64,000 nt of DNA from an uncultured Clostridia bacterium (GTDB lineage Bacteria > Bacillota > Clostridia > Christensenellales > Borkfalkiaceae), in the NCBI GenBank assembly GCA_947625865.1, contig CANQQD010000001.1, forward strand, positions 100,465-164,464. Direction: 5' to 3'. The notes beneath the pieces are model-generated. The model searched no databases, was not told where the DNA came from, and saw only the letters and a program-made list of their open reading frames with translations. The translations under genes and the position numbers were made by a program. Positions 14,610 through 22,696 of the stretch are shown piece by piece (the stretch's first letter is position 1; each line of letters opens with the position of its first letter).

Positions 14610-15917
14610 TTACGATTGGGAAGTTGTTTGTCCCTTGAGTTCCTGCACGAGTTTAGCTACACGGCTGGTTATATCCTGCGTGGTGGGAGCCGTGTCGGCT
14701 TTGGTCCACTCTATAACTTTGGTGCCGTAAGCTTCCATTGCGGACCAATATGTGGAAGGCATGGACTTCTGTATTACGTAGTTGTGCTCGAACTGCTTCG
14801 ATATTGCGCCTATGGCAACGTTGTTTTTAACCTTATCCATTGCGGCAACGGTCTTGTTGGAAGGACCTATTTCAACCGCGTCGAATCTCTTTTCCTGCAT
14901 AGCCTGGCTGGAAAGGAACTGCGCCAGTTTGTGAGCTTCCTCGGGGTGCTTGGAATAGGAGTTTACGCCGTAGAGCTTGTAGCCCGCAAAGGTATACCAG
15001 TGATATGTTTTTTGATCGAGGCTGCTCACGTAGTCGGGCAGTATGGTTGCCGCGTATTTATCGCCGAGATTTTCGGAGATGAGTTTGCCGTTCCACGTTC
15101 CGGTTATGGCAACGCCCATTTTGTTGTTTGTGACATACTCGCTTATAACGGTGTCGTCGCCGTCAACAAGGGCGTCGTGCTTGCCCAGATCATAGTGCAT
15201 CTGCGCGCCTATAACGCCTGCGGTGTATTCGCTTTCCGTTCCGTCTGCCGCCACTGCCTTTTTGGTGTCGAAATCGCAGGCAATGCCGTTTTCAGCAGGT
15301 TCCGCGCCGTTCCATGTAACTTCGTAGGTGCCGCCCGCGCCGTAGATGAACGAGCCTGCATACCAGCCGGTTTTCATCTGGTAAATGAAGTACAGACTCT
15401 TTTCTGCGCACGCGTCGAGAATATCGTTGAGGGTCATATCCTCTATTTTGGTGCCTGCGGGAACTATGTCGGTGTTGTAGTACATAAAGAAGCCGTTGTC
15501 CGCAGCGTAGGGATAGCCGTAGTAGGCATCCCCTATTTTGCCCGATTCAACCGCGCCGGCGTCGTCGGTCTGCTTCATCGAGGTTACCGCCGCGTCGGGA
15601 ACCTTTGCAAGCGCGCCTATGGAGCGGAGCTGTACAAGCTGGTCGTTTGCATAGGCATACACGTCGGCGCCCGCCTCTACGTCCTGCGAAAGCTTTGAAT
15701 ATGCGTCGCCTTCGCCGACTATGCCAAGTTCGATAGGTATTGTTATATCGGGATTCTGTGCAAGGAACTCGTCAACCATTTGCTGTAAAACGGCTTGTTG
15801 CGTGGCAGGTCCCCACACAATCATTTTGTCTTCGCCGCCTCCGCAAGCCGAAAGCCCCATCACGGTTCCTGCGGCTATTGCGCCGCATGCAAGTAGAGAG
15901 ATAATACGTTTTTTCAT
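14610..15917 (-). CDS. malE: Maltose/maltodextrin-binding lipoprotein
   Basis: MKKRIISLLACGAIAAGTVMGLSACGGGED lipobox; SBP-like sequence; GGAGG upstream of ATG 15917. Confidence 0.88.
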   Translation of the reverse strand: MKKRIISLLACGAIAAGTVMGLSACGGGEDKMIVWGPATQQAVLQQMVDEFLAQNPDITIPIELGIVGEGDAYSKLSQDVEAGADVYAYANDQLVQLRSIGALAKVPDAAVTSMKQTDDAGAVESGKIGDAYYGYPYAADNGFFMYYNTDIVPAGTKIEDMTLNDILDACAEKSLYFIYQMKTGWYAGSFIYGAGGTYEVTWNGAEPAENGIACDFDTKKAVAADGTESEYTAGVIGAQMHYDLGKHDALVDGDDTVISEYVTNNKMGVAITGTWNGKLISENLGDKYAATILPDYVSSLDQKTYHWYTFAGYKLYGVNSYSKHPEEAHKLAQFLSSQAMQEKRFDAVEIGPSNKTVAAMDKVKNNVAIGAISKQFEHNYVIQKSMPSTYWSAMEAYGTKVIEWTKADTAPTTQDITSRVAKLVQELKGQTTSQS

Positions 15918-15961
15918 TTTTTCCTCCAAAATTTTATAAAATCGCACTCATGTGCTAAAAT

Positions 15962-16155
15962 TTTTTACTATTTCACAAAATTCTCGGCAGGCCGTGCCTG
16001 CGAATTTTGTGATCTGAGGACTGCTCGTCCTCTGCCTGCGATTTATTAAGGGCCCACAATTATATAATCGCAGGCATTCACCCCGCCGAGGCGCAGGTAT
16101 GCGCAAATTGTGGCTTGCTGCGCAGGGAAACCCTGCTTGCAACGTTTATTATTTA
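15962..16155 (-). repeat. Folded dispersed element, family E copy 1, upstream of malE
   Basis: Nested stems TCACAAAATTC/GAATTTTGTGA, GCAGGC/GCCTGC, GAGGAC/GTCCTC, GCCTGCGATT/AATCGCAGGC; homologous to 21838-22090. Confidence 0.7.
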
Positions 16156-16163
16156 AAGAATTA

Positions 16164-16227
16164 CACCACTCCCTTGCCATCTTCCGTCGCCGACGGGGGA
16201 GGGTGTCACGAAGTGACGGGTGGGAGC
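16164..16227 (+). repeat. Two-hairpin GC-rich repeat, family A
   Basis: CTTCCGTCGCCGACGGGGGAGGGTGTCACGAAGTGACGGGTGGGAG. Confidence 0.8.
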
Positions 16228-16249
16228 AGAACTTTGGTTTGTTATTGCC

Positions 16250-16318
16250 CCTCCCCTCAGTCTCGTTTCACTCGACAGCTCCCCTCGCAAGCGAAGGGCG
16301 CCAAGGTTGGGGTGGCGT
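16250..16318 (+). repeat. Dispersed repeat, family B
   Basis: CCCCTCAGTCTCGnTTnnCTCGACAGCTCCCCTCGCAAGCGAAGGGCGCCAAGGTTGGGG, also at 22270, 23195, 59155. Confidence 0.8.
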
Positions 16319-16350
16319 TCGGCAGTTGTCTCACACGGCGTGTCGCCGCA

Positions 16351-16413
16351 CCACTCCCTTGCCCTCTTCCGTCGCCGACGGGGGAGGGTGCCCTGTAAGG
16401 GCGGGTGGGAGCA
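16351..16413 (+). repeat. Two-hairpin GC-rich repeat, family A
   Basis: hairpin-2 stem variant GCCCT-gta-AGGGC. Confidence 0.8.
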
Positions 16414-16482
16414 ACTACTTTCCTTGTCATTCTGCGCAAGTTCGCGCCGCTTTTGTTTTCTTTTCTGTTAAATGTTTTTATT

Positions 16483-18305: not shown

Positions 18306-19289
18306 ATGACAATAAAAGAAATCGCCGAAGCTCTGAATATTTCGATAAGCACCGTATCCAAAGCTCTCAACGACGCGACCGATATTGCCGATGAAACCAA
18401 AGCCACCGTGCGTAGGTACGCCGAAAGCATAGGATATCCGATGAAATCGAAAAATAAGGACTCGCGCCGCATCTGCGTAATGTATGAAAGGGTGGATACC
18501 GATATCCGCAACCACGTATTCACGCAGATAGTTTCATCCTTTACCGATGTTGCCGTGCGCAGCGGATACGAGGTGATAATCGACACCGTATCCTCTAAGC
18601 CGGACGACTTCGCGCTGGAGAGCTATCTACGCCAGAACAACTTCTGCGCGGCGTTCATTATGGGAATGAACTTCAGAAGCCCCATTTACCGCCAGCTCAG
18701 AAAAACCTCGCTGCCTCTCGTTCTGCTTGACAACCGCGTTTCAAACTGCCCGCTCATATCCTCCGTGTCCAGCGAGAATACCGCCGCGATAATTACCGCC
18801 ATGCGGCATTTGCAAAGGCACGGGCACGCCAAAATAGGCTTTTTGATGGGCGAAAAGGATTCGCTCGTTTCCGCCGAACGGCTTGCAGGCTACATTTTGG
18901 GGCTTGCGCAGGCGGGGCAGGATTTTAAAAACGAATATGTGTATTACGGAGATTTCACGCGGGAGGCGGGCGAAAAAGCCGCCGCGTTCTTCTGCGCGAC
19001 CGACGTGACCGCCGTCATAAGTTGCTCCGACATTATGGCCACGGGGCTCATCGACGGGTTTGCCGCACTCGGCAAAAAGGTGCCCGACGACATATCGGTG
19101 ATGGGCTTTGACGATCTGAGTATCCTGAAGTTCACGCCGTACAACCTTACCACGATGAAGCAGGACTACGCCAGCATGGGCGAGCATGCCTTCCGGCAGA
19201 TAAGGGAAATGCTGGACGGCAGAATGTCCCAGAACGTATATCTGCCCTGCCAGCTCATAGAGCGCGGCTCCATAAAACAAACAACTTAA
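18306..19289 (+). CDS. LacI-family transcriptional regulator (putative maltose/glucan regulator)
   Basis: TIKEIAEALNISISTVSKALND HTH; full-length periplasmic-binding-like effector domain; divergent from malQ. Confidence 0.9.
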   Translation: MTIKEIAEALNISISTVSKALNDATDIADETKATVRRYAESIGYPMKSKNKDSRRICVMYERVDTDIRNHVFTQIVSSFTDVAVRSGYEVIIDTVSSKPDDFALESYLRQNNFCAAFIMGMNFRSPIYRQLRKTSLPLVLLDNRVSNCPLISSVSSENTAAIITAMRHLQRHGHAKIGFLMGEKDSLVSAERLAGYILGLAQAGQDFKNEYVYYGDFTREAGEKAAAFFCATDVTAVISCSDIMATGLIDGFAALGKKVPDDISVMGFDDLSILKFTPYNLTTMKQDYASMGEHAFRQIREMLDGRMSQNVYLPCQLIERGSIKQTT

Positions 19290-21837: not shown

Positions 21838-22090
21838 TTGTTCACAAAAATTTTCGTGCGGTTGCGCGCACTCAAATTTTTCGTGAGTTTGGGCGGCTCT
21901 GCCGCCCTTTGCGCCATTTTTAAGGGCGCACATATTATATAATGGCGCAAATTCCCACCGCTCAGGCGCAGGTATGCGCAAATTGAGTTGTGCTGCGCAC
22001 GCGAGCGTTAGCGACGCTTTGCACACCGCATTATAAAAAATTCTATAATAAGGTGCAAAAAGCGTGGTTTTGCTTGCACCGTTAATTATT
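21838..22090 (-). repeat. Folded dispersed element, family E copy 2, upstream of HAD gene
   Basis: Stem TTTGCGCCATT/AATGGCGCAAA around a 22-nt loop matching copy 1; nested terminal hairpins. Confidence 0.7.
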
Positions 22091-22093
22091 TTT

Positions 22094-22165
22094 ATATGTG
22101 TTCACAAAAAGCTCGGCAAGCCGTGCCTGCGCTTTTTCGTGAGTTTGGGCGGCTCTGCCGCCGCC
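22094..22165 (-). repeat. Family E partial copy
   Basis: TTCACAAAAAGCTCGGCAAGCCGTGCCTGCGCTTTTTCGTGAGTTTGGGCGGCTCTGCCGCC. Confidence 0.65.
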
Positions 22166-22187
22166 GACGGGCGAATGTCGCCCGCTT

Positions 22188-22247
22188 TCCCGTGCCCTCT
22201 TCCGTCGCCGACGGGGGAGGGTGGCGACGTAGTCGTCGGGTGGGAGT
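22188..22247 (+). repeat. Family A repeat
   Basis: hairpin-2 variant GCGAC-gta-GTCGT. Confidence 0.8.
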
Positions 22248-22269
22248 TAGGGGTTTGGCTTGTTGTTAT

Positions 22270-22338
22270 GCTCCCCTCAGTCTCGCTTTGCTCGACAGCT
22301 CCCCTCGCAAGCGAAGGGCGCCAAGGTTGAGGAGGGGC
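22270..22338 (+). repeat. Family B repeat
   Basis: CCCCTCAGTCTCGCTTTGCTCGACAGCTCCCCTCGCAAGCGAAGGGCGCCAAGGTTGAGG. Confidence 0.8.
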
Positions 22339-22385
22339 GTTCGGCAGCTTTCTCCGCCAAGGGTGTGGGGCGTGAGTGCCTACTT

Positions 22386-22443
22386 TCCCGTGCCCTCTTC
22401 CGTCGCCGACGGGGGAGGGTGTCACGAAGTGACGGGTGGGAGC
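22386..22443 (+). repeat. Family A repeat
   Basis: hairpin-2 variant GTCAC-gaa-GTGAC. Confidence 0.8.
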
Positions 22444-22696
22444 AGTGCTTTAGATTGTTGTTATGCTCCCCTCAGTCTCGCTTTGCTCGACAGCTGTCTC
22501 ACACGTTGTAAGGACAACAACGTGTTCGGTCACCGTGCGCGCCTTGCACTATGCGCGCACTCATCTCGCGCGGCAAAACAGCGCACTGTGCTGTTTTGAG
22601 AACTCCGCGCGCGTCCCCCCAAGGGGGAAGAAGCCAAGGTTGAGGGGGGTCGTTCGGCAGCTTTCTCCGCCAAGGTTGGGGAGCGGCGTTACCGCA

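Follow-up and report, generated by a model that had tools for sequence, protein, structure and literature searches.

A strongly folded intergenic repeat of uncultured Clostridia, probably a mobile DNA element, with one end set against gene edges

Introduction

Does a conserved multi-stem sequence beside a gene start belong to that gene, as a regulatory RNA in its 5' untranslated region, or to a mobile element that has settled there? The question is raised by a sequence of ~190 nt, here called E, that adjoins malE in the window, that is, the whole 64,000-nt stretch of DNA from an uncultured Clostridia bacterium analyzed here. A first-pass annotation of the window had reported two copies, one next to malE and one next to a HAD gene, with similar loops and with stems exchanged on both arms, and had named both a 5'-UTR regulatory RNA and a mobile structured element as candidate explanations. 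We have compared copies of E within its own genome, across its genus and beyond, with regard to their folding, their covariation, their position relative to genes and their presence or absence at orthologous sites.

Results

Architecture and abundance of E

On the plus strand, E is composed of P1, P2, P3, the motif ATTC, the r strip, P4, the motif CAAATTG, P5 and an A/T-rich end, in that order (Table 1). P1 has the consensus TTCAC...GTGA, in most cases with a single unpaired C close to its foot, and is conserved at the left end in most copies; P2 has a purine-rich 5' arm, P3 carries a conserved 22-nt loop, and r is a pyrimidine strip between P3 and P4. Relative to shuffled sequence, folding is strong on either strand, both for 15962-16160 (z = -5.4 on the plus and -5.0 on the minus strand) and for copy 2 (z = -4.8 and -5.2, respectively). 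The stems and loops that had been proposed are indeed present, at 15973-15983/16002-16012, 16033-16043/16066-16076 and 21908-21918/21941-21951, the last two with 22-nt loops. A pseudoknot suggested for the loop of copy 1 (CCACAATT/AATTGTGG) fared less well: AATTGTGG lies at 16106-16113 rather than at 16110-16120, the pairing is peculiar to copy 1 and not conserved, and the longest runs are distributed about as in shuffled sequence, for which reasons it was rejected.

Table 1. Positions of element E, its parts and the adjoining genes in the window
Feature	Position	Strand	Remarks
malE	14610-15917, ATG at 15917	minus	Left of copy 1, its start facing P1
Element E copy 1, whole	15972..16160	+	Read P1 first; ends set by many-copy comparison
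P1 hairpin, copy 1	15973..16012 (arms 15973-15983/16002-16012)	+	TCACAAAATTC...GAATTTTGTGA enclosing GCAGGC-CGT-GCCTGC; terminator-like on +
P2 hairpin, copy 1	16016..16032	+	GAGGAC/GTCCTC, 5' arm purine-rich
P3 hairpin, copy 1	16033..16076 (arms 16033-16043/16066-16076)	+	Conserved 22-nt loop AAGGGC.CAC...TATAAT; covariation support
r strip, copy 1	16080..16084	+	ACCCC; parallel to P2 5' arm, triple-helix-like code, one position off the rule
P4 hairpin, copy 1	16091..16104	+	GCGCA-GGTA-TGCGC, then conserved CAAATTG; covariation support
P5 double stem, copy 1	16115..16142	+	TTGC/GCAA with GCAGGG/CCCTGC; covariation support
Right end, copy 1	16143..16160	+	A/T-rich, CGTTTATTATTTAAAGAA; inter-copy similarity fades about here
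HAD gene	start about 21830	minus	Left of copy 2
Element E copy 2	21841..22090	+	Extra hairpin inside P5; P1 toward HAD gene start
P1, copy 2	21842..21886	+	
P2, copy 2	21891..21907	+	GGGCGG/CCGCCC
P3, copy 2	21908..21951 (arms 21908-21918/21941-21951)	+	TTTGCGCCATT/AATGGCGCAAA, 22-nt loop
r strip, copy 2	21955..21959	+	CCACC, follows parallel code with GGGCGG
Third unit, truncated, P1 and P2 only	22100..22163	+	Directly right of copy 2; 30-nt repeat identical to 21877-21906

Rather than two copies, the 1.76-Mb genome to which the window belongs contains 31 matches to a covariance model (derived from 22 copies and spanning P3 to P5, 125 positions), and 41 matches were obtained there by BLAST with 15940-16170 as the query. 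Within the genus, sampled as one genome per species with many incomplete assemblies, the model finds E in 38 of 41 genomes, at 0 to at least 69 copies per genome, the high counts being lower bounds. The same search gave no match in 24 genomes that share the order but belong to other families, and an exact-pattern scan of 85,488 species returned, among the matches listed, only records of Clostridia, Clostridiales, Eubacteriales or Candidatus Coproplasma. As far as seen, E appears to be confined to one genus, which is probably Candidatus Coproplasma. Carriage by viruses was considered and rejected, the exact pattern being absent from viral contigs. No reading frame is kept open across the copies, and E has no match in Rfam at either the gathering or a permissive threshold.

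Covariation and the choice between DNA and RNA

The exchange of both stem arms first noticed between the two window copies proved to be real and general. Across 115 distinct copies from the genus, 98.1% of the stem cells are paired, two-sided changes are found at 24 of the 25 core pairs, and the covariation score is 0.577, compared to 0.170 for shuffled and at most 0.12 for slid alignments, values that lean toward pairing because the alignment was fitted to the covariance model. A 22-copy alignment built without structure gives 0.407 versus 0.161.

Selection at the RNA level normally leaves G-U intermediates on one strand. In P3, P4 and the inner part of P5, however, G-T and A-C make up only 0.33% and 0.12% of 2404 stem cells, with no clear strand bias; in the tRNA stems of a sister genome (26 tRNAs), 7.0% are G-U. 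Since intermediates of this kind are few and show no clear strand preference, the comparison favors selection of the stems as perfect palindromes in DNA, or repair that makes them perfect, rather than selection as RNA. Recent copying and the alignment to a model could account for part of the rarity.

Blockwise change on both arms with few mismatched intermediates would also be expected if the stems were not under selection at all, and inverted repeats within a decaying repeat were instead made perfect by template switching (quasipalindrome correction). Recombinant-looking mismatched stems do occur, in line with this explanation. It nevertheless leaves the conserved loops unexplained, along with the parallel code linking P2 and r and the polar placement described below, and we consider it improbable.

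A parallel code between P2 and the r strip

Positions r1-r4 follow positions N2-N5 of the P2 5' arm in parallel orientation. For N4 and r3, the first 49 distinct combinations show G with C in 27/27 cases, A with T in 11/12 and C with A in 9/10. Parallel correspondence of G to C and of A to T is the code of the pyrimidine-motif triple helix; the cases of C with A fall outside that code, as do those of A with A, which at N4, among the new combinations of a second copy set, are more frequent (6) than A with T (3). In this second set, the rule holds in 89 of 114 cells, compared to a mean of 69.8 after shuffling (0/5000 as high), and it is also present inside single genomes. Antiparallel pairing of r with P2 was rejected as the weaker alternative (z 4.2 for the best register, versus 9.3 for the parallel rule). 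The covariation makes it possible that r contacts P2 as a third strand, in a triple helix.

Placement relative to genes

We analyzed 85 distinct sites, with gene edges taken from simple reading-frame calls. The neighbors are unrelated genes, and P1 points toward a gene 3' end in 54 cases and toward a 5' end in 27. Where the left gene runs toward E, P1 lies 0-7 nt past the stop codon at 32 of the 54 sites; where it is oriented away from E, the distance between P1 and the ATG is often 6-27 nt (15/27). Under a null of uniform placement within the same gaps, P1 would be expected within 7 nt of a stop codon at 2.3 of 44 testable sites, and 20,000 simulations reached a maximum of 9; the observed number is 27. 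The P5 side is near a stop codon at only 1 of the 44. Repeats on the P5 side widen the gaps, yet the proximity of P1 to the stop persists in small gaps (9/10). Divergent promoter regions rarely contain E (5 of about 80). Placement this narrow, 0-7 nt and in one orientation, needs a rule of either targeting or tolerance.

In 41 of 81 copies, P1 itself resembles an intrinsic terminator in having a GC-rich hairpin and, after it, a T run, compared to 1 of 81 when shuffled. The resemblance is found in 35/51 copies behind a codirectional gene versus 5/26 before a gene start, and in 26/41 versus 4/22 when only distinct P1 sequences are counted (P = 0.001), an association that is partly confounded by genome. 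By these features, P1 may be able to act as an intrinsic terminator.

The polar site just past stop codons, the terminator-like P1 found mainly there and the scarcity in divergent promoter regions, together with the conserved loops and the triple-helix-like code, are all consistent with E being a functional RNA at mRNA 3' ends, a terminator and stabilizer kept by the host through RNA-level selection and spread passively by recombination. Such an RNA is difficult to reconcile with stems almost devoid of G-U and without clear strand asymmetry, with copy numbers that range so widely among sister species, and with the state of the same sites in relatives that lack E, where an ordinary terminator, the next gene of a tightly joined operon or unrelated repeats come after the same stop codon. 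On balance, we regard this explanation as unlikely, while taking it seriously.

Both window copies do adjoin the starts of malE and the HAD gene, as annotated, with one correction: since both genes are on the minus strand and to the left of the copies, it is the P1 end, not the P5 end, that faces the starts. That P1 adjoins a same-strand gene start in both cases is what speaks for a riboswitch-like 5'-UTR RNA acting in cis on these two genes. The dozens of other copies lie beside unrelated genes, mostly at their 3' ends, and E is not placed consistently in front of any related group of genes. Moreover, malE of the nearest relative is without E (see below), the loop pseudoknot is not conserved, Rfam contains no match, G-U is close to zero, and a promoter-like site (15958-15931, minus strand; a weak match, to the consensus only) is located between E and malE. 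We consider a regulatory RNA of malE highly improbable.

The gap between E and malE (15918-15960) also contains a small palindrome, GCACATGAGTGC, which has the altered form GCACGCAAAGTGC in genomes G016 and G013. It is possibly an operator for a LacI-type regulator encoded at 18306-19289.

Occupied sites, empty sites and the search for a mobilizer

The nearest relative, G016, whose malE DNA is 95% identical, has no E at malE: the counterpart of window positions 15973-16457, comprising E and neighboring repeats, is gone as one block. The more distant G013 carries an E there, whose P1 is different; the absence from G016 may therefore be explained more simply by loss. At other sites where G000 carries a complete E, G016 retains just half of P1. 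Recent spread is shown by G002, in which identity between copies at unrelated sites reaches 97%. E thus shows both occupied and empty orthologous sites and near-identical dispersed copies, as expected of MITE-type mobility, although some empty sites may be losses. It is also short, noncoding, dispersed, multi-copy and strongly folded, like MITEs and small palindromic repeats in general. No inverted repeat joining the ends of E and no target-site duplication was found at the junctions inspected, and for this reason we do not file it as a classical MITE.

The idea that P1 is a pre-existing genomic hairpin targeted by E was rejected after a survey of about 1.34 Mb of G016, where nearly all complete P1 hairpins are accompanied by E. 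Most solo P1 sequences are half hairpins and are likelier to be remnants, because they sit at sites where G000 has E.

Searches for a mobilizer covered Y1_Tnp, RVT_1 and TnpB-type domains and revealed no gene that could be tied to E. Y1_Tnp is absent from G000, G002, G013, G015 and G029, several of which are among the copy-richest genomes, neither RVT_1 nor TnpB-type domains occur in G000, G002, G015 or G029, and PF07282 (TnpB-type) scored above the cut-off in none of 41 genomes. A mobilizer of any of these three kinds was rejected on account of these absences. They also bear on whether E might serve as guide RNA for an RNA-guided element or as template for a reverse-transcribing one (IscB/TnpB omega RNA, bridge RNA, retron or group II intron remnant), as its compact, structured, noncoding and multi-copy nature and its conserved loops might suggest. 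With RVT_1 and TnpB-type domains missing from those four genomes, Rfam negative even at a permissive threshold and the stems strictly Watson-Crick, this origin is very unlikely; for an omega RNA in particular, the PF07282 search of the 41 genomes yielded no linked TnpB-type gene.

Composite copies and local variants

Other hairpin modules are inserted in P1, P2 or P5 of E copies. The one inside P5 of copy 2 (21990-22075) has the AT-rich center TTATAAAAAATTCTATAATAAGGTGC, and a similar hairpin is found within P1 of copy L024. A second module, bounded by GACGA/TCGTC (GACGAGCGAGGCATTTCATAGCACAG...), is found within P2, or in place of P5, in several copies of the window's own genome (L002, L004, L006, L009, L011, L014, L020), and its CGTC ends are reminiscent of CGTC-tagged REPs. 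Other repeat families cluster on the P5 side of E; those at 16164-16413 and 22180-22500 of the window (CCCTTGCCCTCTTCCGTCGCCGACGGGGGAGGGTG...; CTCAGTCTCGCTTTGCTCGACAGCTCCC...) abut E copies on the right.

In a few copies (L128, L168 of G016, L189 of G013 and L088), the right end is followed by another P1 that is almost the same as the one on the left, so that E is placed between direct P1 repeats of ~42 bp; this may bear on its movement or deletion. In some copies of the G002 type (e.g., L070 and L215), the first pair of P4 is C-C, but the GC-TGAG-GC strip just before it carries a change that matches the C, which suggests an alternative small hairpin.

Discussion

The mobile structured element that the first-pass annotation had listed as its second option accords with the near-identical copies at unrelated sites, the presence and absence of E between close relatives and its genus-wide spread. 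We propose, with a probability of roughly 0.6, that E is a mobile but non-autonomous DNA element from the class of small palindromic repeats (REP/BOX/MITE-like). According to this proposal, the five hairpins, possibly aided by the third-strand contact, would form a compact fold, which an enzyme acting in trans would recognize in single-stranded or cruciform DNA. Insertion would take place in intergenic DNA, in a single orientation relative to the neighboring gene, with P1 against the gene edge and mostly behind a stop codon. There, P1 could serve as an intrinsic terminator, so that the insertion would be tolerated or even useful; an element bringing its own terminator would presumably pay a low cost for settling behind a stop codon. 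A more specific mechanism, which we regard as unlikely but put forward as a speculation, is that E is a mobile element recognized in the form of one folded DNA strand. Its fold would contain a conserved triple helix of the pyrimidine motif, formed by the purine arm of P2 with the strip separating P3 from P4, and a hypothetical enzyme would deliver E, in a single orientation, to the bases immediately after stop codons.

If the mobile-element reading is right, E offers a natural test case for distinguishing structure selected at the DNA level from structure selected at the RNA level, with hundreds of copies, two-sided changes and almost no G-U, as well as evidence, from covariation, that a mobile repeat contains a third-strand contact. 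It also carries a caution, namely that a regulatory RNA should not be concluded from strong covariation upstream of a gene alone.

Comparison with known systems

Integron attC sites and the ends of IS200/IS605 elements are folded single-stranded DNAs that are recognized by structure, with free stem sequence and bulged bases. E resembles them in its variable stem sequence and its bulged base, but its layout differs, and copy-rich E genomes are without Y1_Tnp.

Among interspersed repeats, BOX, RUP and SPRITE of Streptococcus pneumoniae (PMC3049150) are, in the portion of that source drawn on here, similarly small, intergenic, heavily folded, limited to a clade and inserted into one another; they are considered probably parasitic, and SPRITE owes its name to a terminator-like hairpin. 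Compared by description in the same portion, they differ from E in architecture and host, and neither a fixed distance to stop codons nor third-strand covariation was found described there. REP/BIME sequences with RAYT (PMC2817692) and the GTAG and CGTC REPs (PMC3733652) are, like E, extragenic and modular in their composites and keep their palindromicity under sequence change; the CGTC REPs, again like E, have no dedicated transposase (PMC3733652). REPs, however, are single palindromes of 20-40 bp with a GTAG or CGTC tag (PMC2817692, PMC3733652), whereas E has ~190 nt and five hairpins, and the combination of a 20-40 nt palindrome, a GTAG tag and a cognate Y1_Tnp that marks a REP with RAYT is not seen in it. 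The repeats bcr1-bcr18 of the Bacillus cereus group (PMC3446304 and references there) share with E their clade-specific, intergenic nature; some are MITE-like, some have conserved secondary structure, and they are often transcribed in UTRs and operons (PMC3446304), with host and architecture differing from those of E when compared by description. Because E has no RAYT, no terminal inverted repeats and no evident target duplication, it is a variant apart from BOX/RUP/SPRITE, REP and bcr, which are its nearest kinds.
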